Virus record (IMG/VR): IMGVR_UViG_3300029319_000084
Location: 1-50,790 of that record
DNA from: a virus
DNA length: 50,790 nucleotides
Direction: 5' to 3' (one strand)
The number at the start of each line of letters is the position of its first letter. The first letter of the stretch is position 1. Positions 8,435 through 50,790 of the stretch are shown piece by piece. The position numbers and the translations under genes are program-made. Below the pieces are notes generated by a model, which saw only the letters and a program-made list of their open reading frames with translations, was not told the origin of the DNA and made no database searches.

Positions 8435-9019
8435 TTAACCTCTAAAAATATCAACGCTAAAATATTTGTATGACATCGTTACGGTAACTTCTTGTAGCGA
8501 TGTTTCTGTGCTAAAGTCAGACACAGAGTATGTTTTCGGAAACATTTCGGTGACGCTATAGGAATGGCTAATCTCACCCTTGGTGTCGGCTGCAAAAATA
8601 ACAGCGTCACAAGCATAGTCTTCTTTGTATTCAAAAAGTCCAGACAGGGGATTGAACATGTCATCCATCCAAGTGTGAAAAATTTTCACCAGATGTCCTT
8701 CTTTGTCGTTAATAAACGTAAACTCTAAGTCACCCTCAAATCCCATTTTGTAAGGATTTTCAAAATCAATACCACTTGAAACGACTGCGTTGCTTTGCAG
8801 AGTTTGTTGTGGTATGGATACTTTAATCATTCTTCTGTTTAAATGCTCAGAGAACTCCCTCATTTGCATCGGAATCGCAGCGAGAGCAGTTTCAAGACCC
8901 GGACCAAATCCAGTGTTTCCAAACTGAAAGATGTAACGGTCGGATCGTTGATATCCGAGTTTGGAAAGCGTGGCTTTGAAAGCCTCTATATTGAATGAAT
9001 CAAAAGAAAAATCAGTCAT
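8435..9019 (-). CDS. Tail-tube-fold protein, possibly the gp54 role
   Basis: This 194-residue protein has features of the gp19 tail-tube superfamily. A middle section resembles tube strands (GFEGDLEFTFINDKEGHLVKIFHTWMDDM), and the C-terminus has the tube-like strand pair SLQEVTVTMSYKYFSVD. It is one of three such proteins here; the canonical tube is at 41408-41965. Lying between the gp4 and tape-measure genes and facing gp48, it is a candidate for the tube-baseplate junction (the T4 gp54 role, though T4 gp54 is longer at about 320 residues). The start is close to a late-type box at 9027-9034 that sits inside the upstream gene. The predicted leader is only 2 bases. Confidence 0.65.
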   Translation of the reverse strand: MTDFSFDSFNIEAFKATLSKLGYQRSDRYIFQFGNTGFGPGLETALAAIPMQMREFSEHLNRRMIKVSIPQQTLQSNAVVSSGIDFENPYKMGFEGDLEFTFINDKEGHLVKIFHTWMDDMFNPLSGLFEYKEDYACDAVIFAADTKGEISHSYSVTEMFPKTYSVSDFSTETSLQEVTVTMSYKYFSVDIFRG

Positions 9020-9606
9020 TGCCTAGTATTTAGGTACTCAGAAATTATTTCTACGATTGCATTTCTGTAAATCGTAAACTTTGAGGACTTTCTCCACTGC
9101 TTTTCAAGGAACTCTGCTGTGTCGCCGTAGTAAATCTCCTCCCAGAGAGAGGGGTCATACTCAATAGCAATAGGTCCGGCTCTGTCAATTCTATAATTTT
9201 TGATTGCAGGAGCCATGACCGCTCTTGGGATTTTCAACTTATCAACGATCTCGTAATACATTAATGACCTAGAGAAGTGTTCTTCATTGGTCATTCGCTT
9301 TTTGTAAAAATTGACCAGATACTTTCTAAAGCGGCTTGGTAAGTAAAACAAATTTATGCCTGTGATATACTTTGGTTGCACAGATATTGTGATAATAGTG
9401 GGAAAAATATGAAAGTATGGAAGAGTGTCACGACCGACAGGGGTGATATATTTTAGTGTTAGAACACGACCCTCACTTAGTCTATTTTTTGGTAATGATC
9501 TTGGTCTGACAGCACGAACAGTTTTATCTGTGATACGGATATCGTTGCTCTTCATAAGAGTTTCATTCAAACGTGTATTGAATGATTGAAAATTACGATC
9601 TGCCAT
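9016..9606 (-). CDS. Unassigned protein beside gp4 (196 aa)
   Basis: I recognise a motif style, TLPYFHIFPTIITI followed by GINLFYLPSRFR (residues about 60-95), that recurs in conserved unassigned proteins of myophages, but I cannot name it. The C-terminal half is helical and basic. It is translationally tight with its neighbours: it overlaps gp4 by 14 bases and the next gene by 4. In T4, gp2 or gp3 are found near gp4, but the match to either is not clear by eye. The last codons of this gene contain the late-type box for the following gene. Confidence 0.7.
   Translation of the reverse strand: MADRNFQSFNTRLNETLMKSNDIRITDKTVRAVRPRSLPKNRLSEGRVLTLKYITPVGRDTLPYFHIFPTIITISVQPKYITGINLFYLPSRFRKYLVNFYKKRMTNEEHFSRSLMYYEIVDKLKIPRAVMAPAIKNYRIDRAGPIAIEYDPSLWEEIYYGDTAEFLEKQWRKSSKFTIYRNAIVEIISEYLNTRQ
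9027..9034 (-). promoter_or_regulatory. Late-type box (CCTAAATA) inside the 3' end of the 196-aa gene
   Basis: The box is coding sequence of the upstream gene, yet it matches the late pattern and continues as TAAATACTAG. The predicted +1 is 9021, two bases before the ATG at 9019. Confidence 0.55.
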
Positions 9607-10033
9607 AAATTTCTTTCTCGGTTAGAATCTTGAACTTCCAACCCTTTTTCTCACAAACCTCAGAGGCGGCTTCCCACTTTGCTTGATTGACGAGATATGT
9701 GTTTGCCTCATTGATAAATCTTTGAGTCATACGCTTTGGTTTTTTCGGAACTTTCGTGTGTTTGAGTGGCTTAACCTCAATCATCAAAGTTTCTATTTCG
9801 CCTTTTTTGTTTTTTACCTCAACAATGAAATCTGGAAAATACCTGTGTCGTTTTTTATCAACTGGGGAAAGGTATGGAATAGCGATCTCCTCCGATGCCC
9901 AACGTATCACATTTGGATTATCATCAAAGGTGAGCATACATTTTCTTTCCCAGAGTGAGCGATAGGTGATTTTTGTGGGATCACCTAAATATTTGCTTGG
10001 GTTCTTTGGTTGGTATTTACCTCTATACGCCAT
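9593..10033 (-). CDS. 4: gp4 head completion protein (nuclease fold)
   Basis: This 146-residue protein aligns well with T4 gp4 (150 residues). Shared landmarks are GKYQPKNPSKYLGDPTKITYRS at the N-terminus, RYFPDF, the IEVKP strand, and RFINEANTYLVNQAKWEAA before a WKFKILTE end. The layout is that of a TnsA/PD-(D/E)XK nuclease: E29, D68 and E86-x-K88 are present. In T4, gp4 finishes packaged heads so that tails can join. The ATG is 1 base from the predicted start of the late box at 10040-10047, and no Shine-Dalgarno sequence precedes it. This is one of the candidate leaderless genes. It is the first gene of the minus-strand group that ends at 5437. Confidence 0.92.
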   Translation of the reverse strand: MAYRGKYQPKNPSKYLGDPTKITYRSLWERKCMLTFDDNPNVIRWASEEIAIPYLSPVDKKRHRYFPDFIVEVKNKKGEIETLMIEVKPLKHTKVPKKPKRMTQRFINEANTYLVNQAKWEAASEVCEKKGWKFKILTEKEIYGRS

Positions 10034-10038
10034 ACATA
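10031..10038 (+). promoter_or_regulatory. Late-type box (CATACATA) for the baseplate genes from gp48
   Basis: The sequence runs on as TACATACTAT to 10042, identical over ten bases to the box at 4153-4162. The predicted +1 is 10044, giving an 11-base leader with TAGGAGG before the ATG at 10055. Confidence 0.6.
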
Positions 10039-10039
10039 C

Positions 10040-10047
10040 TATCTAGG
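10040..10047 (-). promoter_or_regulatory. Opposing late-type box (CCTAGATA) for gp4
   Basis: Read on the minus strand, the predicted +1 is 10034, one base upstream of the gp4 ATG at 10033. It pairs with the plus-strand box at 10031-10038 as a second bidirectional late promoter. Confidence 0.55.
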
Positions 10048-10054
10048 AGGCTCT

Positions 10055-11275
10055 ATGTCAGAAGAAAACCCACAACCAGACCCAAGCGGCGTAAAACCAC
10101 AAACTAGCACACCCTTCGGTAGTTTGAATGATTTACAGTCAGTCAACCTTGGTCAAAATGAGTATTTCTCAACAAGAGATGTTATTTCAAACTCACAAAG
10201 AGGGTATCCATTTAGGGGAGGCGATTCACCTCTTGTTTATCCTGTGGATCTGGCAGCAAACACAAAAAGCAATAGACAAAGTGCAGCCTTGCGATTTGTT
10301 CCGTACAAACGAGAGTCCTCACAAGTTAGAGTTGAATTGTTAAAAACAAATGGATCTATCTCTGGCTTGGGTGTTGGTGATGTTGGCGAGAGTGGTGAGA
10401 TTGAGCAGGGTGCTTTCTTTAATGTAAATGATGACGGAGTTGACGTAAATTACATCAATGAAAATGAAGGCACAATCCGTGGTGCATACGGTCCAGTTGG
10501 TGGTGCGGGTGGTCAAAGTTTTTTACAACAACTCACGGGATCAGGCACGCCGCCCACACCTGAACAACTTGGTCAGTTTGTTGAGAAGATTGGCAGTGAT
10601 GTTAGACTTTCAAGATCGGGAAATCAAAAGTTAGAAGAGATCATCATGTATTGTCCCGGTGGTCTTAACTTTAATGATAGTGTGTCTTACGCAGAGGCAA
10701 GTGCCGGTGCATTTAACTCTGTTGTTGAGGCACTAGCCGGAAACTTTCAGGCGGGTGCTGATAAACTTAAACTTTTGGGTGTCGGCAAACTTAGTAAATT
10801 GATTGGTAAAGTTCCGGGTGTTGGTGAAGACGCTTTGACAAACTTTTTTACGGCTCGTTATGGAATCGTTGAGAACCAACGAATGGAGTCGCTGTTTGAA
10901 AGTGTCAATCGTAAAAAGTTTCAGTTTGAATTTCAGTTTGCTCCCAGAAGCCAAGAGGAATCAATCATTGTTTTGAATATCATTGAAGCATTCAGATTTC
11001 ACATGCTTCCAGAACTTTCTCTTTCGGGTGCAATGCTTTTAGCACCCCATGAATTTGAAGTTGAGATATTAATTAAAGATCCGGGTGGGGCGTATGAAAT
11101 TAATAGAAATATTCCTCAAATCGGACGAGCCTTTTTGGAAAGCGTAAATGTAGACTATGCACCAAACGATAGATCGGCTTTCTTTTACGATGGTGTCCCA
11201 TGTGAAATTAAAGTTCAACTTTCTTTCTCACAAGCACTTCTTATGAACAGACAACTTGTATTGGCAGGATTCTAA
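10055..11275 (+). CDS. 48: gp48 baseplate tail-tube cap
   Basis: This 406-residue protein resembles T4 gp48 (364 residues), which with gp54 caps the baseplate hub and nucleates the tail tube. The C-terminal part is tube-like: KKFQFEFQFAPRSQEESIIVLNIIEAFRFHMLPE, then a β-rich ending with SFSQALLMNRQLVLAGF. The N-terminal 60 residues are polar. The ATG at 10055 has TAGGAGG 5-11 bases upstream, so the longer in-frame extension to 10010 is rejected. It is first in a tight plus-strand baseplate series and ends in an ATGA overlap region with gp53. Confidence 0.85.
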   Translation: MSEENPQPDPSGVKPQTSTPFGSLNDLQSVNLGQNEYFSTRDVISNSQRGYPFRGGDSPLVYPVDLAANTKSNRQSAALRFVPYKRESSQVRVELLKTNGSISGLGVGDVGESGEIEQGAFFNVNDDGVDVNYINENEGTIRGAYGPVGGAGGQSFLQQLTGSGTPPTPEQLGQFVEKIGSDVRLSRSGNQKLEEIIMYCPGGLNFNDSVSYAEASAGAFNSVVEALAGNFQAGADKLKLLGVGKLSKLIGKVPGVGEDALTNFFTARYGIVENQRMESLFESVNRKKFQFEFQFAPRSQEESIIVLNIIEAFRFHMLPELSLSGAMLLAPHEFEVEILIKDPGGAYEINRNIPQIGRAFLESVNVDYAPNDRSAFFYDGVPCEIKVQLSFSQALLMNRQLVLAGF

Positions 11276-12174: not shown

Positions 12175-12175
12175 T

Positions 12176-15543: not shown

Positions 15544-17789
15544 TGGTTCAAGTTTACCCCCAATGGCAAAACTACTGGTTTCCACCCGACACGGACGCTT
15601 TTGATGATGATTATGGATCGCCGTACATGGCGGAAAATGATATAGATGCGTTTTACAACTCATCAACAGTTTTTAATGATTTTTATCTTTCTAGAACAAA
15701 TGCTCAGAGTGGTAGAGAAAATCAATACTCAAATTTATCTCAGTGGGCATATGATGGCGACACTACAGACAACGCAGATCAAAACTGCACGATTGAGCAT
15801 CTAAATCAAGTTCTTGCAGATAAAGATCAACAAGCAAATCCAACAGATACTCTAGAGCAAGATGGTTTTCATATTATTAATGATGACGAAGCCGCTGTTT
15901 TAGATTTTGAAGATGTAAATGTAAATTTAAAATTTATCACACCCGATCCAAATAATCCTGATGTCACTCTCGGAAAAAGCATCATTTTTAACACGCTCTT
16001 CAATGTTATTTTTGGTAAGTATGGTTTAGATTCATTTAATGAAGGGGTCAGTGATACAGGGTATGGTGATAATACAAATTTTGGCGGAGCCTTTGATCCA
16101 CAAAACCCGTACAAAATTAATAAGCGTGTCGCTAAGATTTTTATTGAGGGATATGTTCGTAGATACAGAATCCTTCGTGAAAGATTTCCAAATGCAAACT
16201 TAGGATGCTACTCTTTAGCAGCGGGGTGGGATGTTTTAAGTTATGACAACAAGGGAGAGTATGAGGCAACACGCCGAGGACTCTCAAACTTTTTGCTATA
16301 CATTAATCGTGCGGGACCATATGGTGACGTTGGCAATGTAAATTATATTTTGCCTGAAGACGAAGATGACGGTCCTGAACTTGGTCAAGAGTTGATGAGT
16401 CTGATGGACTCTGCCTCGGTGCGGCTCGTTCTTGGCTCTCAAATTTCACAAATACCAGAACCATTAAGTGATTTTGGAACACCATCTGGACCTTATGGGG
16501 TCGGCACGTTATCTTCAAACTATGAAGATTGGTCAGTTGATGAGGCTAGACTTGTCCTATGGGATCAAATATCAAACACTCTTAATTACGCAAATTTAAG
16601 TGTTAATCTACCCGAACAAACATTCAAGTTAAGTGATTATTTAAAAGTTGCAATTCATCTTCCGTACCGATTTGGAAATGCAGGTCGTGACGACAGAAAT
16701 AATGTTCCCGTTGAATTGATTGACACGACATTTGAATTAATCCAAAAGGGTAATCAAAATCGTGAGTCTATAATTAATGAAATTTATTACTGGGCAGGTG
16801 CGTATTCTGGTAACAACATTTATGCCTTTGAGCCATTGGGTGGAGTTTTCTTTGAAAGATTAGATGGGGTCGGTGAGGATGGTTTTGATCCGACAAATCC
16901 TTACGCACCATCAGGTAAACTATTTGAACTTGAATTATTCAATATTTCTGGATGCGAGGAGCCACCACTACCATTCCCACCGAATCAAATACAGGCACTA
17001 GAGAATATTATCACAGGAGAGGCATTTAGAAGTCCAGTAGAAGGAGCAGTGAACTCTGTCCTTGCTGGGGTTGGTGATGTTCTTGGCGTATTAGGCAACG
17101 CGACTGATGCCCGTCTTGTCAAACCAGATGGCACACCAATTTCAACATTTATTGATCCGGATGGTAATCTTCAAATTCAAAGTGCCGTGGGATTTTTAAC
17201 TGAGCGTCTGAATCGTGCAACAGAAATTTCAAATGAGTTTCAAGATCATGCTTACCGACTCAGTGGAGTCAGTAATTACATAGATGGATTTGAAGCAGGT
17301 GGTAGCATTGGTGATTTTCCGGGTCTTGTCGGGCTTCAAGCAATCGCTAGAAATTACAACAATGTGAGAAATGCGATTGAGGGTGGTAATCTTGGTGAAA
17401 TTGTCAAAGATCATTACTCACCATTTTTCAGTAGCATTTTAGGTCCGGGTGATGCTTTGTACGAGTCCTTCAAATCACTCATTAATGGTGACTTAAGAAA
17501 CTTCTTAGGCACTATCCCACTTAAAGATGATAGATTAGATTTATCTGAGGCGACCATAGATCAGTTAGAAAATCTTGTGGATATTGGAAATGCAATTTTA
17601 GATTTTGAGCAGTCAATTAGAAATCTTATAGATTCGGATAACAATCTTTACTTTTCAGCACTTGACTATCTTGCTAAAAGCACGCTAGGTTTCTCGGTGT
17701 TGACTATGGCTGAAGATCCATGCTTTAGCCAGAAATTGCTCGGACAAATTGCAAAACCAGATTTAAAGGGATTGCTTAATATTTCCTGA
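15543..17789 (+). CDS. Large unassigned protein at the spike tip position, possibly enzymatic
   Basis: I do not recognise this 748-residue protein. Two stretches recall TIM-barrel glycosidases: residues about 200-232 (RRYRILRERFPNANLGCYSL) and 412-436 (IYYWAGAYSGNNIYAFEPLGG). Acidic residues occur at strand-like ends. The last 270 residues are helical with Gly-rich linkers. It sits directly after the PAAR gene, the place where tip cargo or hydrolases are often encoded. The hub gp5 lacks lysozyme, so a replacement envelope- or capsule-degrading activity is plausible. This is inference: no catalytic pair can be assigned by eye. GAGGGTAGGA precedes the ATG. Confidence 0.7.
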   Translation: MVQVYPQWQNYWFPPDTDAFDDDYGSPYMAENDIDAFYNSSTVFNDFYLSRTNAQSGRENQYSNLSQWAYDGDTTDNADQNCTIEHLNQVLADKDQQANPTDTLEQDGFHIINDDEAAVLDFEDVNVNLKFITPDPNNPDVTLGKSIIFNTLFNVIFGKYGLDSFNEGVSDTGYGDNTNFGGAFDPQNPYKINKRVAKIFIEGYVRRYRILRERFPNANLGCYSLAAGWDVLSYDNKGEYEATRRGLSNFLLYINRAGPYGDVGNVNYILPEDEDDGPELGQELMSLMDSASVRLVLGSQISQIPEPLSDFGTPSGPYGVGTLSSNYEDWSVDEARLVLWDQISNTLNYANLSVNLPEQTFKLSDYLKVAIHLPYRFGNAGRDDRNNVPVELIDTTFELIQKGNQNRESIINEIYYWAGAYSGNNIYAFEPLGGVFFERLDGVGEDGFDPTNPYAPSGKLFELELFNISGCEEPPLPFPPNQIQALENIITGEAFRSPVEGAVNSVLAGVGDVLGVLGNATDARLVKPDGTPISTFIDPDGNLQIQSAVGFLTERLNRATEISNEFQDHAYRLSGVSNYIDGFEAGGSIGDFPGLVGLQAIARNYNNVRNAIEGGNLGEIVKDHYSPFFSSILGPGDALYESFKSLINGDLRNFLGTIPLKDDRLDLSEATIDQLENLVDIGNAILDFEQSIRNLIDSDNNLYFSALDYLAKSTLGFSVLTMAEDPCFSQKLLGQIAKPDLKGLLNIS

Positions 17790-17795
17790 TACATA
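17788..17795 (+). promoter_or_regulatory. Late-type box (GATACATA) for gp25
   Basis: The box overlaps the stop codon of the previous gene. T4 geometry places +1 at 17801, exactly the A of the gp25 ATG. No Shine-Dalgarno sequence lies in the 20 bases before the ATG. Confidence 0.6.
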
Positions 17796-17800
17796 AGTAG

Positions 17801-18181
17801 ATGGCTAGGTATAAAGATTTAGATTTAAACTTCAATTTAAACCCTCTGTCGCGTGATATCAACGTTTTGACAGATAGGGACGCTGTTCGTAGGTCAGTAA
17901 GAAATGTAGTTTTGTATAATTTTTTAGAGAAGCCATTTCAACCCAGATTCGGTGGGAATGTGATTCGTCGTTTGTTTGAAAATCTTGACCCAGTATCAAT
18001 TTATTCTATTAAAAAACAAATTACGGATGCCATCCAAGATTATGAAACAAGAGCCACGGTCATCTCCGTGACGGTTCAACCAAACTTTGACACGAACTCT
18101 CTTGAAATTGATATTACATTTAGCATTAGAAATTCACCCGAACCAATCGTCTTAAACATAACACTTGAAAGGGTACGATAA
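17801..18181 (+). CDS. 25: gp25 baseplate wedge protein
   Basis: This 126-residue protein belongs to the gp25/GpW family (132 residues in T4), a conserved core wedge piece that binds the first sheath ring. Landmarks are the DLDLNFNLNPLSRDINVLTD start, AVRRSVRNVVLYNFLEKPFQP and the GGNVIRRLFENLD loop, followed by the beta segment IDITFSIRN. The upstream sequence holds a late box but no Shine-Dalgarno sequence, so its mRNA may begin at the ATG. The stop overlaps the gp6 start (TAATG). Confidence 0.93.
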   Translation: MARYKDLDLNFNLNPLSRDINVLTDRDAVRRSVRNVVLYNFLEKPFQPRFGGNVIRRLFENLDPVSIYSIKKQITDAIQDYETRATVISVTVQPNFDTNSLEIDITFSIRNSPEPIVLNITLERVR

Positions 18182-30078: not shown

Positions 30079-30097
30079 GTAAGGACTACATAGTATT

Positions 30098-33000
30098 ATG
30101 GCAGAACCAGATTTTCCACCACCACCCGGCATTTCAGGCGGCGAAACATTAGCCGTTCTTTCTTCAGATGATCTTTTTGTTACATGGTTTGATAGAACGA
30201 ATGCTTTGATTGATGCTGTCAATCCGCTTGAAATTTACGGTCTTACCGCGATGGCTGGTGGATCAAATGATGGTATTACTCTTGCGATTGATAACACCAC
30301 TGGTATTTACAGCGTTGGTTTTTCAACACCCGCACTAATTCACGGAAATACTGAGTTCGTTGATGGAATTACATTCTCCGGTAATTATGTTTCGTTCAAT
30401 GGTGGCACAGTTGACTTTAGCGGTTCTACACTTTATGGAAATGTAGTAAGAACTTTCAATGGGGAAACTGGAGATGTCATCTTTAGTGCAAATGCGAATC
30501 TTCCCGGTGGTGCTAACGGACAAATTCTTGTTTACAATGCTGATGGTGCAACGTGGGAAGCCCAAAACTTCTTCATGGGAGTCACAACCGATATTATCTT
30601 AGCGGGTCCGAGTGGTGGGTTACTTCTCGGTGTGACCAGTGGTGATGCAGGAAACTATTACAGAAAAGGCACGATTCAACTTGGTGGACCAACTGCTGGT
30701 ATTCTGTTTAGAGATGATACGAGAACTAACTCTCACCAAAGAGGTATTTTTGTAAATTATACTGATCGTGACTTTAGAATTGAGGGTGGGGACACTGCCG
30801 GTAATCTTGATACCACAAACAGTCCATACGTTAATATCTCAACTCTTAATAGAAGAATGGGATTGTTTGGCGTTACCAGTCCGGATGCTCCGATTCATTA
30901 CAGAGCCAGAGGATTCGGACAAAGAGAACTGTTAATTGAAACACAGAATGGTAATACATTTGGTTTACAAATTCAGAATGCCCTTGCTACTGTAAACATG
31001 GGAGAGGTTGATGAATTCAAGTTTGATATTTCAACAAATGCAAACAATCAAGGACAATTCAGAGTTTCCGGTGGCACTGCGTCATCAAAATCAAGTGTAA
31101 TTTATGCAAATCAAAGTGGTGATGTTGTTGTAGGTGGAGGCAGCAGAACATCATCAGGTGGGTCTGGATCTCTCAACCTTGCAAGCGGAGAGTTGAGAGT
31201 CGGTGGAGTCACCGGAGAGTCTGGTTACGTCCTCACATCAACTGGTGTAAGTGCAAGTTGGCAAGAAGCCGCTGGCGGTGGTTTTGAAGAAGTAATCATT
31301 GATGGTCAAGACTTTGCCGGTTCCACAAATCCAAACTCACTTGTTCTGAGTCCGGGTCAAAATATTAATCTAAGAGGCTTTTCTTCTGGGGCAAGTGTCG
31401 GTGTAACAGTTGAATCATTTATTCATACTTACGCAGAGGGTGTACCAACTCTTTTTGGTGCTACAAATGAAGGTATTAATATTAAAGGCACACCCGGTGA
31501 TATACAAGTCACAGCGGTTAGCGGAAGTATAAATGGTGTCCAGACAGTTAATTATCAAATTCAAACTCTTGGTGGTGGACCTGAAGGCTCTGACGGCATC
31601 ACTGGACTTAACGCTTTCTTCATTGAAAGTGCAACATCTCCATCTGTAACTGGTCCTTCCTTTGAAGGTCTTCGTGTTACCACGACTGGTGCAGGAATCA
31701 CAGCAACATTTAGTCCGGGTCTTACGACAGGCACTTTAGACCTTGAAGTCACTGGCGTTGGTGGTGGTGGAGCCACTGGAACCACAGGAAGCACAGGTAC
31801 GACAGGATCAACAGGAGCCACCGGAGCAACAGGTGCAACTGGAGCCACAGGCGGAACGGGTGCTACGGGCGGAACTGGTGCTACTGGTGGCACTGGAGCC
31901 ACAGGTGCTACCGGAAACGCAGGATTCAGGTACGAATACTCAGCCTCCACTCCAAACTCTGGTCAATTTAATTACAACAAAGCAGATGGTGAATTTAAAG
32001 TTCACTTTACAACTGCCGATGGTTTGAATATTCAAAATTATCTTAACAGCATTACTAATGGTGGTGATCTGGCATTTGCGATTGCCAGCGACGGTGGTGC
32101 TGTTGCAACTGTCAAATCATCTAGTGTGGGTAGTGGTGCTTCGGTAAGAACAATCGGTGGTGTGACCACTGATAGTGGAACATTTACTGCCGGTGAAGAA
32201 ATTTTCTTCAACTTTTCACCATCTGGCGGTGGAACCGGAGCCACGGGTGCGACCGGAGCAACGGGAGCCACTGGAGCAACGGGTGCGACTGGAGCCACTG
32301 GTGCAGATTCTACTGTCGCTGGTCCAACTGGCACTACTGGTGCGACGGGTGCGACAGGTGCAACTGGTTCAGATGGTTTGACCGGAGCCGCAGGTTTTAG
32401 ATACAAAACTAAAACAGCATCTATACCCAGCGGTGCTATTTTGTTTAACGGTGCGGCTGATCCAAACTTTGCTGTTTCAATCACATCTGATAGTGGAGAA
32501 AGTTTAAAGCCATACTTGGAAACAATCGCCACAGACAGAAATGATAGAATTTATGTTCAAAGTTTGGACGGAAGCAGTCATTACTCCGGTAGAGTCACTG
32601 GAACACAAGACAACACATCTAGCATCACTTTCACTGTTACTGACACAACAGGTACTTTCTATACCACAACCGATACTGATGTTTATCTTTACTTTATCGC
32701 TGGTGGCACTGGTGAGCGAGGACACACTGGTGGAACGGGAGCCACGGGAGCAACCGGGGCGACTGGTGCTACAGGAGCGGGCGGTATTCAATTCAGAGTT
32801 GATGCTTATAATAACACAAGCACAAACCCTGCTGCCGGTGGCATGTGCTATGAGATTGATGCCAAAACTCTTAGATTTGACGATACAGACTTCACAGGTC
32901 AATCAATCGCAGCACAATTCTTCTTAGGTTATCCGGCGGTTGGCGACACGATCAATGTCTCATTCACTAATCTTGTTAGTGGTGCATCCAGAGGTTTTGT

Positions 33001-34606
33001 CTCAGGTAAAATTAAAACGATCACAAACACGGGATCACTCATCACTGTTGTCCTTGAAGATGGAGATTCAGGTAATTTCCCCGGTCAACAACAAGTGCCA
33101 GTTCCAGCAGGTGCGTTTGCTTTTGTAAACTTTGCCAAATCTGGTAGTCAGGGGGCGGCTGGTGCAGATGGTTCCGCAGGATCTACTGGTGCGACCGGAC
33201 CCTCTTCACCGTTTAGATACACAATTAGAGATGTAGCCGATAACCCCGGAACACCGACAGCCGGACAAGTAGTCGTTGATACTAATGGCTCAGGTTCCAG
33301 TAGTAATATCCCATTCATTAGATTCGGATCAACTGATCTTGACGGAAAAGACATTGATACCTTTATTGATGATTTCTGTGATGTGGGTGATATGGTTCAT
33401 CTTTCATCAGTTGATGATGATTATTATGGATTTGGTAGGATTGTTCTTACCGAGGGAACAGGTACAAATCCTGCTACTCGTAGATTGAGAATTTCGGGCT
33501 TCACGGCTGATGGTTCTTTCTCAGCGGGATCAACCGAAGTGTCTGTGCATATTTCTAAACGAGGTTCAACTGGTGGTGTTGGTGATCTTCAATACTATTC
33601 AATTGACGATGAGTCACCATTCCAAAGCACAGAAGCAAATAAGATTTCTCAAATCAAAATTGAAAATGATACTACTAACAATAGTTTCATTACAATGACC
33701 AGAGAAACAAACTCTGCCGAGGACGGAAACGATCAAATTAGGATTAAATTCTCAGGATCTCTCGGTGGTGATGGGGCAAGTGCAGTTGGTGAATATCGTA
33801 TTGATGAAATTACACCGACCACAAGTTCTTATGGGTCTGCTGTTGGCGATCACAATAACATGCAGCCCGGATTTACAATTCCTGCACCTGCCTCTTCAAC
33901 TGCTTGGTGGCAGACATATACTCTTTCTAGGGTTGTGTCAGTTCCATTTAGTAGGTCAGCCAGCCAAGCACAACAATGGCAAAGTGCAGGCGCATCCTCT
34001 TACTTCACTTCAGACTCGGTAACTCCTAATACGAATGGAAATAGTAGCCTAGATGATAGGGGCTTCCCAGCGGCGATTGATGTTTCTGATTTTACAAGTT
34101 CACCATTTGGATCAGATACTACCGGAAATGTGCTTTTGTTAGAAAAAGGCTATATGTATAAAGTATCATATGAAGTCACAATGGCAGGTGGAACAGCGGG
34201 TGTATCTAATACTACTTTGCAAATTCTTGCGTGTGAAGGACGAGATGCTCAAAATAATAGCGCGGAATCATCACCCTCCCAAGCGACCGATGGCGGTGGT
34301 GCTAGAAGTGATGCGTTTGGCACTCAATATACGTTTGTTCAGACTTCTGGAGTTCCTCAGACTGGTAGACTCGCAGATGCCGGAGAGGGACTCAATGGTG
34401 CTTTGTATTCAACAGGACAGAGAAGTGAACTCTCTAGAGATTACATGCAATCATTCAATTATGGTGTTCAAACCAAATCAATCAGTGGCTTTATTGACTT
34501 GAGACAGGCTATTTATGATAAAGGTGTCGTTTTAGCCTTGTCATCAAGAAGCCCAAATCCGGCAAGATTCTTGAGTGCAAGACGTATGGTTGAGGTCGTT
34601 AAATAA
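30098..34606 (+). CDS. Modular tail fibre with collagen-like linkers (1502 aa)
   Basis: The N-terminal 550 residues are beta-rich. Four collagen-like Gly-x-Thr/Gly-x-x blocks follow, at about residues 558-605, 712-766, 869-896 and 1016-1034. Each is followed by a related domain of about 100-115 residues that starts with an FRY-type motif: FRYEYSAS, FRYKTKTA, QFRVDAYN and PFRYTIRD. A fifth start, LQYYSIDD near 1158, follows a shorter KRGSTGG linker. Such layouts belong to trimeric fibres for host recognition. The C-terminus is globular with no collar domain. AAGGA lies 12 bases before the ATG. A weak late-like sequence at 30069-30078 (TAAGTATTAA) deviates at two bases and is not called. Confidence 0.85.
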   Translation: MAEPDFPPPPGISGGETLAVLSSDDLFVTWFDRTNALIDAVNPLEIYGLTAMAGGSNDGITLAIDNTTGIYSVGFSTPALIHGNTEFVDGITFSGNYVSFNGGTVDFSGSTLYGNVVRTFNGETGDVIFSANANLPGGANGQILVYNADGATWEAQNFFMGVTTDIILAGPSGGLLLGVTSGDAGNYYRKGTIQLGGPTAGILFRDDTRTNSHQRGIFVNYTDRDFRIEGGDTAGNLDTTNSPYVNISTLNRRMGLFGVTSPDAPIHYRARGFGQRELLIETQNGNTFGLQIQNALATVNMGEVDEFKFDISTNANNQGQFRVSGGTASSKSSVIYANQSGDVVVGGGSRTSSGGSGSLNLASGELRVGGVTGESGYVLTSTGVSASWQEAAGGGFEEVIIDGQDFAGSTNPNSLVLSPGQNINLRGFSSGASVGVTVESFIHTYAEGVPTLFGATNEGINIKGTPGDIQVTAVSGSINGVQTVNYQIQTLGGGPEGSDGITGLNAFFIESATSPSVTGPSFEGLRVTTTGAGITATFSPGLTTGTLDLEVTGVGGGGATGTTGSTGTTGSTGATGATGATGATGGTGATGGTGATGGTGATGATGNAGFRYEYSASTPNSGQFNYNKADGEFKVHFTTADGLNIQNYLNSITNGGDLAFAIASDGGAVATVKSSSVGSGASVRTIGGVTTDSGTFTAGEEIFFNFSPSGGGTGATGATGATGATGATGATGATGADSTVAGPTGTTGATGATGATGSDGLTGAAGFRYKTKTASIPSGAILFNGAADPNFAVSITSDSGESLKPYLETIATDRNDRIYVQSLDGSSHYSGRVTGTQDNTSSITFTVTDTTGTFYTTTDTDVYLYFIAGGTGERGHTGGTGATGATGATGATGAGGIQFRVDAYNNTSTNPAAGGMCYEIDAKTLRFDDTDFTGQSIAAQFFLGYPAVGDTINVSFTNLVSGASRGFVSGKIKTITNTGSLITVVLEDGDSGNFPGQQQVPVPAGAFAFVNFAKSGSQGAAGADGSAGSTGATGPSSPFRYTIRDVADNPGTPTAGQVVVDTNGSGSSSNIPFIRFGSTDLDGKDIDTFIDDFCDVGDMVHLSSVDDDYYGFGRIVLTEGTGTNPATRRLRISGFTADGSFSAGSTEVSVHISKRGSTGGVGDLQYYSIDDESPFQSTEANKISQIKIENDTTNNSFITMTRETNSAEDGNDQIRIKFSGSLGGDGASAVGEYRIDEITPTTSSYGSAVGDHNNMQPGFTIPAPASSTAWWQTYTLSRVVSVPFSRSASQAQQWQSAGASSYFTSDSVTPNTNGNSSLDDRGFPAAIDVSDFTSSPFGSDTTGNVLLLEKGYMYKVSYEVTMAGGTAGVSNTTLQILACEGRDAQNNSAESSPSQATDGGGARSDAFGTQYTFVQTSGVPQTGRLADAGEGLNGALYSTGQRSELSRDYMQSFNYGVQTKSISGFIDLRQAIYDKGVVLALSSRSPNPARFLSARRMVEVVK
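31769..31912 (+). repeat. Collagen-like (Gly-Ala-Thr) tandem block 1
   Basis: Sixteen imperfect 9-base units of GGN-(GCN/ACN)-AC(N) code for Gly-x-Thr triplets. Codon choice varies between units, so the repeat is conserved at protein level more than at DNA level. It links the fibre shaft to the first FRY domain. Confidence 0.85.
32231..32395 (+). repeat. Collagen-like tandem block 2
   Basis: Gly-Ala-Thr triplets run from 32231, with an ADSTVA interruption near 32302-32322, and resume to 32395. This interruption resembles breaks in other phage collagen stretches and may allow bending. Confidence 0.8.
32702..32785 (+). repeat. Collagen-like tandem block 3
   Basis: Nine Gly-x-x triplets occur, including GERGHT, then four Gly-Ala-Thr copies, between the second and third FRY-type domains of the fibre. 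Confidence 0.75.
33143..33200 (+). repeat. Collagen-like block 4 (short)
   Basis: A shorter Gly-x-x block (GSQGAAGADGSAGSTGATG) sits between the third and fourth FRY-type domains. Confidence 0.65.
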
Positions 34607-39333: not shown

Positions 39334-39341
39334 GCTAAATA
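39334..39341 (+). promoter_or_regulatory. Late-type box (GCTAAATA) for the tail sheath gene
   Basis: The box continues as TAAATACTAA. The predicted +1 near 39347 gives a 19-base leader with AAAAGGAG before the ATG at 39366. Confidence 0.65.
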
Positions 39342-39365
39342 CTAAGACCAAAAGGAGAATCGTTT

Positions 39366-41375
39366 ATGGCATTCCAAGTTAGCCCCGGTGTTGAAGTCAG
39401 AGAATTTGACCTCACGACAATTATTCCCGCAGTCTCAACGACTGCCACAGGTTTCGCAGGCTTCTTTGATTGGGGTCCGCTTGAGCAAAGAATCACTGTC
39501 ACCAGTCAAAACCAATTAAGACAATTGTTTCGTGGACCCACGGACACGAACTCCTCTTATTGGTTCACTGCTGGAAACTTCTTGAACTATGGTGCAAATC
39601 TTCAAGTGGTTCGTGTTGTTAATCAAGATACCGCTTTGAATGCTGGTGACTCTGGTGGTCATTTAATTAAAAATGAAGAAGACTACGAGTCAGATGAAAG
39701 TGCAGAAACCTTTGGCGGTAACGTTGCAATTGCTAAGTTCCCCGGTGGTGTTGCAGGACAAAACACACTCGGTAACTCTCTGCTGGTGGCGATCTCCGAT
39801 AACACTCACAAATCTGTTGGAGTCAATGGAATTGTAAACGGCGGAACGTCATGTGGATTTACAATGGGTGTTGACGCTGAGCGTGCTATTGGCTCAACCA
39901 CCTTTGGAGACACCCTTGTTGTAAACGGAGTCTCCAGAACAATCACAAGTGCAGATGATGGAAAAACTGGCACATTCTCCGTAACTCCCGCTTTCACTGC
40001 GAGAGAAGCCGGTGCTACTCAGGGTTTGATTAAGTGGAAGTACGCCGACTCGTTCTCCCAAAGACTTCCTGCAACATCACAGTTCGCACTTGATGCCACT
40101 GGTCTTACTGGTGCAAACGACCTTGTTCACGTTGCAGTCGTTGATAAAGACGGTGATTGGACTGGTCAAGCAGGAACACTTCTTGAGACTTTTGATTCAT
40201 TATCAAAAATTGTGGATGCAAAAAACTCACAAGGTGGAAACATCTACTATAGAGAAACAATTAAAGATGGATCTGCATACATCTATACAGGAAATCACCT
40301 TGCCGCAGAAAGTGGTTTTGGAACATCCGGTAGAACGTGGGGTAACACTGCTTCGGTTGGAGCGACCTTCGCAAGCACGGTCAAAAACTTCTATGGTGGC
40401 TTAACAGGCGGTTTCCATGATCTTCCCACTGGAAACGACTTCTATACAGACGGATATGAAAAGTTTGCCGATCCTGAAACAGTTGACATTTCTGTAATTC
40501 TTGGTGGTCCAAACACAGGCACACAGGCAGAACTGGTCAATCAAATTGTGAGTACCAGAAAAGATGCCGTGGCGTTCCTTTCCCCACCGAGAAATGCTTT
40601 GCTCACATCAAATGATCAACCAAGACAAAGTTATCAACAGGTCGCTAATATTAGGGCATACCGAAATGGTGTTAGTGCAGTATCCGAAGGTGGCACAGAA
40701 AACTACACTACAGGCGGATTGAATATTTCATCCTCATACGCAGTGATGGATTCTGGGTACAAATACATGTACGACAGATTCAATGATGTTTTCCGATACG
40801 TCCCATTGAATGGTGACGTTGCTGGTATCGCGGTACGATCTGACTTTGAAACTGAAACATGGTTCTCCCCAGCCGGATTCAATCGTGGTCAAGTCTTAGG
40901 TGTGGTTAATCTTGCTCTCAACCCTGTTAAGTCTGAGAGAGATACGTTGTATCAAGCAGGTGTCAACCCCGTGGTTTCATTCCCCGGACAAGGCACAGTG
41001 TTGTTTGGTGATAAGACCTTGCTTTCTAAGCCAAGTGCCTTTGACAGAATTAATGTTCGTAGATTGTTCATCGTTCTTGAAAAAGCAATCTCCACGGCAG
41101 CCAAGTTTAGTCTCTTTGAACTGAATGACCGCTTTACACGCGCACAGTTTAAGAACCTGATTGAACCATTCTTGCTTGATGTTCAGGCTCGTAGGGGTAT
41201 CACTGATTTCCGTGTCATTTGTGACGAAAGTAACAATACTCCAGAGATCATTGATAGAAACGAATTTGTTGCAGATATCTTTGTGCAACCCACCCGATCC
41301 ATCAACTTTATTACTCTGAACTTTATCGCTACCAGAACTGGTGTGAACTTTGACGAAATTGCTGGTGTTGTCTAA
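39366..41375 (+). CDS. 18: gp18 tail sheath protein
   Basis: This 669-residue protein (659 in T4) starts FQVSPGVEVREFDLTTIIPAVSTTATGFAGFFDWGPLEQ, the classic sheath N-terminus. Its C-terminal domain, RRLFIVLEKAISTAAKFSLFELND, then RAQFKNLIEPFL and FRVICDESNNTPEIIDRNE, is the conserved sheath core that mediates contraction. The middle region (residues about 100-350) is variable and would face outward. It has its own late box and a strong Shine-Dalgarno sequence, in line with high expression. Confidence 0.97.
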   Translation: MAFQVSPGVEVREFDLTTIIPAVSTTATGFAGFFDWGPLEQRITVTSQNQLRQLFRGPTDTNSSYWFTAGNFLNYGANLQVVRVVNQDTALNAGDSGGHLIKNEEDYESDESAETFGGNVAIAKFPGGVAGQNTLGNSLLVAISDNTHKSVGVNGIVNGGTSCGFTMGVDAERAIGSTTFGDTLVVNGVSRTITSADDGKTGTFSVTPAFTAREAGATQGLIKWKYADSFSQRLPATSQFALDATGLTGANDLVHVAVVDKDGDWTGQAGTLLETFDSLSKIVDAKNSQGGNIYYRETIKDGSAYIYTGNHLAAESGFGTSGRTWGNTASVGATFASTVKNFYGGLTGGFHDLPTGNDFYTDGYEKFADPETVDISVILGGPNTGTQAELVNQIVSTRKDAVAFLSPPRNALLTSNDQPRQSYQQVANIRAYRNGVSAVSEGGTENYTTGGLNISSSYAVMDSGYKYMYDRFNDVFRYVPLNGDVAGIAVRSDFETETWFSPAGFNRGQVLGVVNLALNPVKSERDTLYQAGVNPVVSFPGQGTVLFGDKTLLSKPSAFDRINVRRLFIVLEKAISTAAKFSLFELNDRFTRAQFKNLIEPFLLDVQARRGITDFRVICDESNNTPEIIDRNEFVADIFVQPTRSINFITLNFIATRTGVNFDEIAGVV

Positions 41376-44799: not shown

Positions 44800-44802
44800 A
44801 CC

Positions 44803-46680: not shown

Positions 46681-48126
46681 ATGGATAATTTACTCGTAGA
46701 AAATTTGAAGGAAAAGTGGGAACCAGTCCTCAACTGTGAGGGTATGACCCCTATCCAAGACGATTATCGTCGTAACGTGACGGCAATCTTGCTTGAGAAC
46801 CAAGAGAAGGCTCTTCGTGAAGAAGCCAACGTCGCCCCTGTCCCAACGAGCGGTGAGTTCTCAAACACAAACGGTGCGTTCAACGCGGTCGCTGCGTTTG
46901 ACCCCGTTCTCATCTCGCTCGTTCGTCGTTCCATGCCTAACTTGATTGCATACGACATCTGTGGTGTCCAGCCTATGTCTGGTCCCACTGGTCTGATCTT
47001 TGCGATGAAGTCCAAGTTTACCAATAAGTCTGGTGCAGAAGCCCTGTTTAACGAAGCACCTACCGAATTCTCCGGTACATCCGGTGGCGGTGGCACTGCT
47101 GGCGGTGTTGGTTTCCCATCATTCGGTGGCACAGGCGACCCCTTGGGTAACAAGAATGGTGCTGGTGTCTCCGGTGGTTTCAAGAACTCCCCCGAAGATA
47201 CCGATCTGTCTGACTTTATGAAGCCCGGTGCTACTACCGCTGAACTTGAAACCAGCACATTCAACGAAATGGCATTCGTCATTGACCGTACATCCGTGGT
47301 TGCCAAGACCCGTGCGCTCAAGGCTGAATACACTTCGGAACTTGCTCAGGATCTCAAGGCTGTTCACGGTCTGGATGCTGAGGTTGAGTTGGCTAACATT
47401 CTCTCGGCTGAAATTCTTGCTGAAATCAACCGTGAAGTTGTTCGCTCTGTCTACACCAATGCTAAACTTGGCTGTCAACAAGGAGACCTGTTCTTCAAAT
47501 CAAACGCTGGTTTCTCTGGTGGTTCTGGTGAGCCTACTAACATGGGTGGTATCTACGACCTTGAGCAAGACTCTGATGGTCGTTGGTCTGCTGAGAAGTT
47601 CCGTGGCTTGATGTTCCAAATTGAGCGTGAAGCCAACGTGATTGCTAAAGAAACTCGTCGTGGTAAGGGTAACTTTATTCTCTGCACCTCCGACGTTGCT
47701 TCGGCACTCGCTATGTCTGGCTTCTTAAGCCTGACCCCAACCCCTGACATTAACCTTACCGTTGATGACACAGGTAATACCTTTGCCGGAACTTTGAACG
47801 GTCGTATCAAGGTCTACATTGATCCATACTCCGTGTCGGGTGCTGATTACTGTGTCGTTGGATACAGAGGCTCCAGCCCATACGATGCTGGTATGTTCTA
47901 CTGCCCATACGTCCCGCTGCAAATGGTTCGTGCAGTTGACGAAAGCACCTTCCAGCCCAAGATCGGCTTCAAGACTCGTTACGGTCTTGTGAACAACCCG
48001 TTCGTGTCTGGCAACGGTGTCGGTTCTACTGTTGATAAGAGCGACCCACACAGCAATGCTGCTATTCGCTCTAACCAATACTACAGAATCTTCCGTATTG
48101 CTAACCTTCACGGTAACAACGCCTAA
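46681..48126 (+). CDS. 23: gp23 major capsid protein
   Basis: This 481-residue protein (521 in T4) has gp23 signatures: WEPVLNCEG, FDPVLISLVRRSMPNLIAYDICGVQPMSGPTGLIFAMKSKF, the KTRALKAEYTSELAQDLKAVHGLDAEVELANILSAEILAEINREVV helix region, and SPYDAGMFYCPYVPLQMVRAVDESTFQPKIGFKTRYGL near the end. A gp21 cut site is likely near residues 45-48 (LREE before ANVAP), consistent with loss of an N-terminal scaffold-binding segment, but this is inference. No gp24 vertex gene is visible, as in marine relatives. A Shine-Dalgarno sequence, AAGGAG, precedes it. Confidence 0.98.
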   Translation: MDNLLVENLKEKWEPVLNCEGMTPIQDDYRRNVTAILLENQEKALREEANVAPVPTSGEFSNTNGAFNAVAAFDPVLISLVRRSMPNLIAYDICGVQPMSGPTGLIFAMKSKFTNKSGAEALFNEAPTEFSGTSGGGGTAGGVGFPSFGGTGDPLGNKNGAGVSGGFKNSPEDTDLSDFMKPGATTAELETSTFNEMAFVIDRTSVVAKTRALKAEYTSELAQDLKAVHGLDAEVELANILSAEILAEINREVVRSVYTNAKLGCQQGDLFFKSNAGFSGGSGEPTNMGGIYDLEQDSDGRWSAEKFRGLMFQIEREANVIAKETRRGKGNFILCTSDVASALAMSGFLSLTPTPDINLTVDDTGNTFAGTLNGRIKVYIDPYSVSGADYCVVGYRGSSPYDAGMFYCPYVPLQMVRAVDESTFQPKIGFKTRYGLVNNPFVSGNGVGSTVDKSDPHSNAAIRSNQYYRIFRIANLHGNNA

Positions 48127-48150
48127 GTTTTAGGTAAAAATTAAATACGC

Positions 48151-48183
48151 AGATAGGGGAGCCGAAAGGCTCCCTTATCTTTT
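48151..48183 (+). terminator. Terminator after the major capsid gene
   Basis: A 13-bp stem (one G-T pair) with a GAAA loop at 48164-48167 is followed by TTT. It would separate the abundant capsid message from the gp3-like gene, whose late box follows within 5 bases. Confidence 0.88.
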
Positions 48184-48186
48184 ACA

Positions 48187-48194
48187 CCTAAATA
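48187..48194 (+). promoter_or_regulatory. Late-type box (CCTAAATA) for the gp3-like gene
   Basis: The box continues as TAAATAATAA to 48198. The predicted +1 is 48200, the A of the ATG, and no Shine-Dalgarno sequence lies between the terminator and the ATG. Confidence 0.6.
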
Positions 48195-48199
48195 ATAAG

Positions 48200-48829
48200 A
48201 TGACAGATCCAAATAATCCTTTTATTGGTATTCCGCCTCCGATCTCAGCATCAGGAATATCATCAGATTCAATTTTAAATGATGGAAATCAACTGCCATC
48301 TGTTACTTCCGGTGCGCAAATCGGAAAACCACCCGGACCTGTGAGTAGGCAACCGACAAATGTAAACTATCTGTATCAGACATTTTTTCGTTTTCAAATT
48401 CACCGTTTGCCCAAAATGGAATATTTTATTCAGAGGGTAAACTTGCCCGGTTTCGGGTCGGATCAAGCCTTAGAACAACCGACTCGTTTCGTTGCGGCTA
48501 AACATCCCACTGCAAGACCACGCTTTGATAATCTTACCATGACCTTTCTTGTAAATGAAAGCATGGAAAACTGGCGTGAGATTTATGATTGGATGAAAAC
48601 AATTTACCTAGTCAAAGATCACGATGATTATAACGAAAAGATTTCTAATCATTTTTCTGATGGCACACTTCATATTTTGAATAGTGCGATGAATCCGAAG
48701 TTAGAGATCAAATTTAGAAATCTACTTCCCGTCAGCATGACTGGATTTGAGTTTGATTCATCTGTGACCGACTTGGTTCCATTCACTTCAGAAATCACCT
48801 TTGCCTACGATTATTACGAATTCGTCTGA
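48200..48829 (+). CDS. Tail-tube-fold protein, possibly gp3 tail completion
   Basis: The N-terminal 55 residues of this 209-residue protein are Pro/Ser/Gly-rich. Residues 60-209 look like the gp19 tube fold: FFRFQIHRLPKMEYFIQRVNLPGF, RFDNLTMTFLVNESMENWREIYDWMKTI, and a final EITFAYDYYEF strand. In marine T4-like genomes, as I recall them, the gene between 23 and uvsY is annotated gp3, the tail completion and sheath stabiliser. By eye the fold is tube-like, so a tube-baseplate role is an alternative. The ATG coincides with the predicted late +1, and no Shine-Dalgarno sequence or alternative ATG precedes the conserved region. Confidence 0.65.
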   Translation: MTDPNNPFIGIPPPISASGISSDSILNDGNQLPSVTSGAQIGKPPGPVSRQPTNVNYLYQTFFRFQIHRLPKMEYFIQRVNLPGFGSDQALEQPTRFVAAKHPTARPRFDNLTMTFLVNESMENWREIYDWMKTIYLVKDHDDYNEKISNHFSDGTLHILNSAMNPKLEIKFRNLLPVSMTGFEFDSSVTDLVPFTSEITFAYDYYEFV

Positions 48830-48836
48830 TTTCCTC

Positions 48837-48864
48837 TTGACACGCCCTCTGGGACTCTTATAAT
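48837..48864 (+). promoter_or_regulatory. Early sigma70-like promoter for uvsY
   Basis: TTGACA at 48837-48842 and TATAAT at 48859-48864 match the consensus, again with a 16-base spacer. The -35 box starts 8 bases after the gp3-like stop. The predicted +1 near 48871 gives a leader of about 30 bases containing AAAAAGGA before the ATG at 48901. Confidence 0.85.
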
Positions 48865-48900
48865 CCGAGTGTCAACGAGAAAAAAGGATAAAGATTAATT

Positions 48901-49335
48901 ATGGAACTACATGAACTTAGAGTATTAGTAGAGCAAGATAGCAAGATTGACGATACTCAACTTGATACGGAATCACTGAGACTCCCTGCACTACACAACA
49001 AATATCTTAACTTTTATCACGACGCTAAACTTCGTTATGAAAAAGCGACGAATGAATACAATCGTCTGTATCGGCTCAAGTGGGAATATTATACAGGTAA
49101 GATTGATCAAAAAACACTTGACGAAAAGGGATGGGAGCCTTTTCAGCACAATATTCTCAAGCAGGACATTCCTATCTTTATGAATAGTGACGAAGACCTG
49201 TGCAAAAGAAAAGAAGTGATTACCTACATCAAGTCTATCGTGGAATATCTTGAAGATGTCGTGAAAGAGATTACCTTCCGGCACACGAAAATTAAGAACG
49301 CGATTGAATGGAGAAGATTCTTGTCGGGAGCATAA
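48901..49335 (+). CDS. uvsY: UvsY recombination mediator
   Basis: This 144-residue protein (137 in T4) matches UvsY, which loads the UvsX recombinase on gp32-coated ssDNA. Like T4 UvsY it starts with an LxxLxxLVEQDxxIDxTxLxxE helix. It has the charged helical middle (KYLNFYHDAKLRYEKATNEYNRLYRLKWEYYTGK) and the C-terminal EITFRHTKIKNAIEWRRFLSGA block. It is driven by a sigma70-like promoter and lies between late genes. This fits expression before the late stage, together with gp32 and the exonuclease. Confidence 0.92.
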   Translation: MELHELRVLVEQDSKIDDTQLDTESLRLPALHNKYLNFYHDAKLRYEKATNEYNRLYRLKWEYYTGKIDQKTLDEKGWEPFQHNILKQDIPIFMNSDEDLCKRKEVITYIKSIVEYLEDVVKEITFRHTKIKNAIEWRRFLSGA

Positions 49336-49338
49336 ATA
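49331..49338 (+). promoter_or_regulatory. Late-type box (CATAAATA) for uvsW
   Basis: The box overlaps the uvsY stop codon. The predicted +1 is 49344, one base before the ATG at 49345. A late promoter for uvsW agrees with T4, where uvsW is expressed late. A GGGAG at 49326-49330 lies 14 bases from the ATG, too far to be typical. Confidence 0.6.
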
Positions 49339-49344
49339 TAATGT

Positions 49345-50790
49345 ATGCCCGATTACACTATTGAGGACATTGATTCTTCTAATATCAAAGTCCGCTGTGA
49401 AAGACATCTTGCCAAGGAACTCTCTGACTTCTTTACCTTTAAAGTCCCCGGAAGAGAGTTTATGCCTGCGTATCGTGCAAAAAGATGGGATGGGCAGATC
49501 AAACTCTACAATCTGTATTCTCAACGTATCTACGCAGGACTTGAAGCCTATATTCTCAAGTTTTGTGAGGATCGGAACTATACAGTAGAATTACCAAAAA
49601 GAAGTCCTCCACCAGCCTTCTCAGAAACCCACCTAGAATCGCTTCTGAGCAGTTTGAATATTTCTATTGGTGGGAAGGCGATTGATCCTCACAAGCACCA
49701 GAAAGAAGCCATCCTACACGGTATGAATACAAATCGTTGTTTGTTGTTATCACCGACAGGATCAGGTAAGTCTTTGATCATCTATACGCTCCTAAGACAC
49801 TATTTGAATCTGATCCCAAAGGAACAGAAAGTTTTAATTATCGTTCCGACTATCGGACTTGTTTCACAAATGTTCTCAGACATCTGCGACTACGCAGAAA
49901 AGGACAAAAGATGGAACCCAAGAGAACAGACGCATATGATGTATGCTGGAAAAGAAAAGAACACAAAGAAAAGAGTGGTCATTTCAACTTGGCAGTCGTT
50001 ACACAAACTACCACCAGAATACTTTCAGCAGTTTGGAACAGTCTTTGGCGACGAGGCACATTTATTCAAGTCAAAATCACTGACTTCAATTATGACCAAA
50101 CTCACCCGTTGCCCGTATCGTATCGCAACGACAGGAACTCTTGACGGTATGCTCACTCACAAGTTAGTGATTGAGGGTTTGTTTGGTCCGGCTAAAAAGA
50201 TTATCACAACTAAGAAGTTGATGGAAAAGAAGTTACTTACCAACTTGACTATTGACTGCTTGCTGCTAAAATATTCCGGTAGCGATAGACAGCGGATTAG
50301 AAGAACACCGTATCAAGATGAGATAGAATGGCTCATCACTGACGAAAGACGAAACAAGTTTATATGTGATTTAGCCTTGAAGACAAAAGGTAACACACTC
50401 ATACTGTTCCAGTTTGTGGAAAAGCACGGAAAGGTTCTAAACGAAATGCTTAAAGATTGTGGAAAACCTGTGTTCTATATTCACGGCGGAACTGACGTTG
50501 AGCAGCGTGAGGAAGCCCGTAAAGTTGCAGAAACAATTGACAACGGAATCATCCTTGCGTCCTACGGAACATTTTCCACTGGCGTGAACATCAAACGCCT
50601 AAATAATATTGTGTTCTCATCACCGTCAAAGAGTCGGGTCAGGGTGCTGCAAAGTATTGGAAGACAACTTAGAAAGTCTATTCACAAAAGCACCGCACGA
50701 CTCTACGACATATGTGATGACTTGTCGTGGAAAAAGTATCAGAATCACACTCTTCGTCATTTTATAGAACGTAAAAAGATTTACGACGCT
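49345..50790 (+). CDS. uvsW: UvsW helicase (incomplete at window end)
   Basis: The open frame runs 482 codons to the window edge with no stop. The protein is a superfamily 2 helicase of the UvsW type. The N-terminal domain (residues 1-90) includes REFMPAYRAKRWDGQIKLYN. Walker A (PTGSGKS) lies at about 137-143, DEAH at 236-239, a TGT(L) motif III near 263, and QSIGRQLR motif VI at 436-443. T4 UvsW unwinds R-loops and recombination intermediates and shifts replication away from origins late in infection. The start is ATG at 49345. An ATG at 49341 is in another frame and meets a stop after seven codons. Confidence 0.95.
   Translation, partial: MPDYTIEDIDSSNIKVRCERHLAKELSDFFTFKVPGREFMPAYRAKRWDGQIKLYNLYSQRIYAGLEAYILKFCEDRNYTVELPKRSPPPAFSETHLESLLSSLNISIGGKAIDPHKHQKEAILHGMNTNRCLLLSPTGSGKSLIIYTLLRHYLNLIPKEQKVLIIVPTIGLVSQMFSDICDYAEKDKRWNPREQTHMMYAGKEKNTKKRVVISTWQSLHKLPPEYFQQFGTVFGDEAHLFKSKSLTSIMTKLTRCPYRIATTGTLDGMLTHKLVIEGLFGPAKKIITTKKLMEKKLLTNLTIDCLLLKYSGSDRQRIRRTPYQDEIEWLITDERRNKFICDLALKTKGNTLILFQFVEKHGKVLNEMLKDCGKPVFYIHGGTDVEQREEARKVAETIDNGIILASYGTFSTGVNIKRLNNIVFSSPSKSRVRVLQSIGRQLRKSIHKSTARLYDICDDLSWKKYQNHTLRHFIERKKIYDA

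Follow-up and report, generated by a model that had tools for sequence, protein, structure and literature searches.

Late gene expression in T4 is a textbook system of leadered mRNAs that depend on a Shine-Dalgarno (SD) sequence. The T4 late promoters, dependent on gp55, gp33 and gp45, consist of an 8-bp box (TATAAATA) placed about one helical turn from the transcription start and serve late virion and recombination genes. Leaderless mRNAs, exemplified by lambda cI transcribed from PRM and by mycobacterial genes, have their 5' end no more than about 5 nt from the start codon, use AUG in preference to GUG or UUG and carry no SD. The late promoters of the cyanomyovirus S-PM2 are described as NATAAATA (PMC2984593). 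In the open-licence PMC literature, leaderless late genes were not found described for any T4-like phage, an earlier report being possible; the AR9 paper calls phage transcripts "often leaderless", yet AR9's own leaders are 26-491 nt long. Here we analyse the 50,790-base IMG/VR record IMGVR_UViG_3300029319_000084 (hereafter the window), a fragment with mainly structural genes from a T4-like marine myovirus whose terminase matches those of cyanomyoviruses and of the methylophage Melnitz at 57–59%, and in which boxes of the late-promoter type lie immediately before the start codons of five genes. A first-pass annotation had read these genes as encoding leaderless late transcripts whose +1 coincides with the ATG, and this reading gains support from the positional enrichment of the box in relatives, its coupling to SD loss and the alignment of the start codons. 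Judged from this comparative sequence evidence, it is very likely that gp55-type late promoters have become fused to start codons and give rise to leaderless late mRNAs. In the proposed mechanism, a box presumably recognised by gp55 and placed 5–7 nt 5' of the start codon would lead the late RNA polymerase to start at, or within about 2 bases of, the A of the AUG, and the resulting leaderless mRNAs would be expected to initiate translation on the 5'-terminal AUG and not by SD pairing. A second class of late promoter in the same genomes would start RNA at least 10 nt before an ATG preceded by a strong SD. The predicted leaderless class resembles lambda cI and the mycobacterial genes in its RNA beginning at the AUG, and differs from them in being a conserved class of T4-like late genes that each have their own promoter and that coexist with leadered genes.

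The distance between box and ATG, in bases, is given as d; with T4 geometry (box ending at -6) the +1 coincides with the ATG at d=5. In gp25 (baseplate wedge, phrog_261; plus strand, 17789..17803) the box ATACATA (17789-17795), which abuts the TGA stop (17787-17789) of the preceding gene, is followed by AGTAG and the ATG at 17801, giving d=5 and a predicted +1 at the ATG. The same spacing is found in the gp3-like gene (plus strand, 48188..48202), where CTAAATA (48188-48194) and ATAAG precede the ATG at 48200. A 6-nt spacer, placing +1 one base before the ATG, separates box and start in uvsW (UvsW helicase, phrog_16; plus strand, 49332..49347), with ATAAATA (49332-49338), TAATGT and the ATG at 49345, and in gp4 (head closure, phrog_218; minus strand, 10031..10046), with CTAGATA (10040-10046), GTATGT and the ATG at 10033. 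In the 194-residue tail-tube-family gene (minus strand, 9017..9033), CTAAATA (9027-9033) and the 7-nt spacer CTAGGCA precede the ATG at 9019, which overlaps the stop of the upstream gp2 (ATGA), and +1 is predicted two bases before the ATG. The offsets of 0, 1, 2, 0 and 1 originally assigned to gp25, gp4, the tube gene, the gp3-like gene and uvsW are thus confirmed by direct reading, with sequence-predicted leaders of 0–2 nt. In the genes with an offset of 1 or 2 the base at the T4 +1 is a pyrimidine (T, T and C for uvsW, gp4 and the tube gene, respectively), and a purine is first reached at the A of the ATG in uvsW and gp4 and one base before the ATG in the tube gene. Two window genes belong to the tail-tube family phrog_45 (8435-9019 and 48200-48829); the profile label of the latter extends only to the family, and the name gp3 derives from its position before uvsY and uvsW, as in S-WAM1, where the corresponding gene is annotated tail completion protein gp3. 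In the uvsW box the first three bases of TAAATA (49333-49338) are also the uvsY stop codon TAA, and an upstream stop codon also lies inside the box in some gp25 relatives.

The evidence for a defined promoter position comes from related genomes. For each standard box ([AC]TAAATA) the first ATG opening an open reading frame (ORF) of at least 80 residues was located, using homemade, mechanical ORF calls, and 124 heptamers of the same composition served as background. In the Pelagibacter phage HTVC008M such an ATG lies at d=5 for 11/64 boxes versus 16/8572 heptamers (p=2e-17), and 12 of its 14 short-distance cases, before filtering by accepted genes, are at exactly d=5. The same distance is enriched in Mosig (6/74 boxes, p=1e-7), in Melnitz (3/61, p=3e-4) and in the window together with nine metagenomic contigs, which are partial and partly related to one another (12/185 boxes versus 41/17452 heptamers, p=2e-13). 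TAA-containing controls could themselves sit near starts as stop codons; with only these as background the enrichment remains (p=4e-18, 2e-7, 2e-4 and 2e-14 in HTVC008M, Mosig, Melnitz and the window with contigs, respectively), so the stop codons of upstream genes are accounted for. Start codons at d=5 comprise 32 ATG, one TTG and no GTG, in line with the AUG start of leaderless mRNAs. The box-to-ATG distance is bimodal, falling at d=3–8 or at d of at least 15 with a trough at 9–14; d=9–14 is not enriched in HTVC008M, Mosig, Melnitz or the window with contigs, while d=15–29 is enriched in all of them.

In contrast, T4 and KVP40 show no enrichment at d=5 (1/154, p=0.24, the single T4 case resting on a mechanical ORF call), and five cyanophages are near background (3/375, a weak p=0.02). 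Short against long leaders number 45/113 in the clade versus 9/189 in the T4, KVP40 and cyanophage comparison (p=4e-10). Thus, classical T4 and its cyanobacterial relatives almost never place a late promoter at the start codon: most T4 and KVP40 boxes are separated from the ATG by at least 15 nt that include an SD, and the cyanomyovirus late promoters, with the same box on homologous genes, are leadered. Prochlorococcus phage P-TIM68 (KM359505), with five boxes at d=3–8, only one of these at d=5, exceeds the other cyanophages tested and may possess a minor leaderless set. The deposited SAR11 and OM43 phage relatives are filed in Kyanoviridae, the family of the cyanomyoviruses; these isolates are the only members of the set with an established heterotrophic host. 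AT-rich genomes contain many TAAATA sites, and in the window the bare hexamer is not over-represented (26 versus 28.5 expected), so that only box position is informative there. An origin of the pattern by chance is nevertheless extremely improbable, as the position-specific enrichment is some 15- to 100-fold (p down to 1e-17), is missing from the AT-rich T4 and repeats orthologue by orthologue. For the clade, chance arising from AT richness is refuted by the same-composition and TAA-containing heptamer controls; it may apply to the tube gene and to a sixth candidate at 30098 (see below) taken individually.

The T4-type 8-bp box is represented by CTAAATA or ATAAATA in three of the five window genes, the full octamer TATAAATA not being found in the window. 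The gp25 box is one of two variants, and its TACATA core occurs at d=5 in 7/195 cases, 17.7 times background, with a 5.5-fold enrichment at d=15–29. TACATA is therefore a genuine second late-box variant in the clade of the window, in which the clade differs from T4, and its use supports the gp25 box. This second box was seen in the window and in contigs G009, G010 and G005 and not in pelagiphages, T4 or cyanophages, which suggests an altered late sigma recognition.

The position of +1 is indicated by the leadered promoters of the same phages, 113 in number, of which 83% have a purine (A 55, G 28) at the sixth position past the box (+6), a position that no start codon constrains there. The same +6 purine peak appears in 204 leadered control promoters of T4, KVP40, cyanophages and C48C1. 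It sets the transcription start at this base, about one helical turn from the box, as expected if initiation follows the T4 type. In the d=5 class the +6 base is the A of the ATG, and a pyrimidine (T or C) stands at +5 in 84%, forming a pyrimidine-purine (YR) initiator.

The absence of a well-placed SD from the candidate genes, set against strong SDs in genes with longer leaders, was already part of the first-pass annotation and holds in the window, where anti-SD pairing free energies are -2.2, -2.1, -0.3, +1.8, -6.6 (uvsW) and -5.8 (the 30098 gene) for the leaderless class versus -6.4 to -10.2 for the leadered genes (p=0.003). The uvsW value derives from a GGGAG located upstream of the box and hence outside the predicted late RNA, and the region predicted to be transcribed contains no SD. 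SD strength is bimodal with box-to-ATG distance in the relatives as well as in the window. Among gp25, gp4, gp3 and uvsW orthologues, with an SD counted at four or more bases, it is present in 7/122 leaderless versus 53/69 leadered starts (p=5e-25). The leaderless set is delimited by where the box lies and not by whether an SD is present; a box near the ATG does itself take up part of the stretch where an SD would lie. The switch is thus coupled, SD being absent where the box is at the ATG. Both states occur among orthologues. HTVC008M (at d=5) and the close relatives of the window have leaderless gp25 and gp3 genes; in Mosig the distance is 5 for gp3 and 8 for gp25. A leaderless gp2 is shared by HTVC008M, Mosig and Melnitz, and in KVP40 an SD-bearing leader precedes both gp25 and gp4. 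A loose control is provided by gp13, which in most of the set has an SD and no box near the ATG, HTVC008M gp13 (d=8) being the exception.

At the level of single genes, the closest gp25 relatives of the window carry ATAAATA or ATACATA at exactly d=5, as does HTVC008M gp25 in its spacing. Relatives of gp4 carry CTCCTAAATA at d=5–8 (d=5 in HTVC008M), most close orthologues having TAAATA or TACATA at the site. The gp3 gene is leaderless in 51 of 90 distinct relatives, 43 of them at exactly d=5, and uvsW in 45/105; box conservation is weaker for the 194-residue tube gene. Start codons could have been mis-assigned, with true starts located downstream behind an SD, and the gp3 N-terminus is indeed poorly conserved, the PHROG match of the window gene beginning at residue 37. 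However, gp4, gp25 and uvsW align with their relatives from residue 1, gp3 has no other in-frame ATG before its conserved domain, and the deposited HTVC008M annotation independently starts genes at the leaderless-class ATGs (checked over 1–50 kb, including gp25, gp4 and gp2). Conserved downstream starts with an SD were not seen in the gp4, gp25, uvsW and gp3 alignments, and by alignment with relatives such starts are rejected; mis-assignment is highly improbable.

Several observations weigh against promoters fused to start codons. Within the window alone the significance is modest, 3/14 boxes versus 27/1632 control heptamers lying at d=3–8 before an ORF-opening ATG (p=0.002), with p=0.06 at exactly d=5. 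Two of the five window boxes are variants, and the TAGATA of gp4 has no statistical support (1/219 at d=5, 2.2-fold, not significant). Neither kind of box is present in 52/105 uvsW relatives. In addition, the uvsW, gp25 and tube-gene boxes overlap, abut or adjoin upstream stop codons, so that a leadered read-through mRNA with translational coupling is possible at these genes. The boxes could accordingly be real promoters that are minor or decayed, with expression mainly from read-through mRNA; this we regard as unlikely, as it is inapplicable to gp3 behind a terminator or to the divergent gp4 and gp2 and does not predict the conservation of a d=5 box together with SD loss. A terminator hairpin with a T tract follows gp23 directly 5' of the gp3-like promoter (plus strand, 48152..48184), and leaderless gp3 promoters lie right after a terminator-like hairpin and T tract in 40/51 relatives. 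Similar structures precede 27/39 non-leaderless gp3 genes, and the terminators therefore bear on leader length and not on class. The gap between gp4 (minus) and the tube-cap gene at 10055 (plus) spans 21 bp (10034..10054); gp4 has the near-ATG box, and the tube-cap gene combines ATACATA at d=16 with a strong SD, AGGAGG. In HTVC008M the divergent gp2 and gp4 are separated by 26 bp, which hold a box for each gene. Together, the terminators before gp3 and the short divergent gaps leave little or no room for a leader. Within 10031-10054 of the window the signals of the two divergent genes overlap, the tube-cap ATACATA with the gp4 start codon and the gp4 box with the tube-cap SD.

A/U-rich, unstructured start regions favour SD-less initiation. 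The TAAATA-like element might thus act as an A/U-rich translational site on RNAs begun further upstream, which would fit this effect and the location of many of these genes in operons. Such a role is very unlikely, since the same hexamer is enriched at d=15–29 with an SD in the same genomes, single-base variants of equal A/T content (TAAAAA, TATATA, TTAATA and TAAATT) show no enrichment at d=5, the spacing is held to a single base with a YR step at +5/+6, and the gp3 copies come after terminators.

The sixth candidate, which the first-pass annotation lacked, belongs to a tail-fibre-like gene of 1502 residues (plus strand, 30086..30100), where CTACATA and GTATT precede the ATG at 30098 (d=5). 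It is doubtful, as an SD-like TAAGGA is kept before the box and its homologues are leadered, with the box position not conserved. The leadered arrangement is illustrated by gp18 (plus strand, 39335..39368), which has CTAAATA at d=24 and the SD AAGGAG; the same pattern is found in the window at gp19, gp13, gp22 and 15280.

In uvsW, about 40% of the distinct leaderless relatives place the box in the loop of an inverted repeat of 5–7 bp, the 3' arm of which reaches up to or into the ATG, for example ATCCCTA-AATA-TAGGGAT, TCTCCAT-AAAT-ATGGAGA and GTCAT-AAATA-ATGAC. Stems of at least 5 bp occur in 15/39 versus 3.2 expected with permuted flanks, a comparison from which relatedness is not fully removed. 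The arms differ between loci yet stay complementary (L014, L016, L031, L033, L044, L058, L059, L335, L340 and others). The repeat is found in 1/43 gp3 genes, is absent at gp4 and gp25 and is not clear in window uvsW. Predicted AUG accessibility in the uvsW relatives is 0.35 versus 0.43 (p=0.03), a small effect that is absent from window uvsW (0.77). A hairpin mechanism shared by all leaderless genes is rejected, the repeat being specific to uvsW and its effect on AUG accessibility small. The late promoters of T4 e, soc, 49 and I-TevI lie within hairpins by which the start region is masked on early RNA (PMC3014915, PMC2988022). Many uvsW relatives are similar in that the repeat surrounds the box and the late RNA would omit the 5' arm; they differ in their much shorter stems, in having no SD to mask and in the absence of the repeat at gp3, gp4 and gp25. 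UvsW unwinds origin R-loops as part of its late role (PMC3016281), which the inverted repeat would fit.

Ribosomal protein bS21 (PF01165) is encoded by HTVC008M (91237-91392), Melnitz-1 (34209-34367) and Mosig (9983-10132), precisely those three cultured phages in which d=5 is significantly enriched, and was not found in T4, KVP40, Syn9, S-PM2, P-SSM2, Bellamy, C48C1, S-WAM1 or P-TIM68. A link between bS21 and the leaderless class is a hypothesis drawn from three positive phages of one family, the contigs being incomplete. Two late translation programmes might conceivably run in parallel, one leaderless for assembly and recombination and one SD-led for abundant virion proteins, with bS21 shifting ribosomes between them, a scheme we hold to be improbable as it stands. 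For annotation, gene finding with a start-site model that relies on an SD may assign leaderless starts wrongly. A very abundant ocean phage lineage appears to have shifted a defined set of genes, largely for assembly and recombination, to leaderless expression, and in the cultured phages of the abundant SAR11 bacteria this makes two questions accessible to test: how leaderless mRNAs fare in the competition for ribosomes during late infection, and for what reason these phages encode a bS21 of their own.

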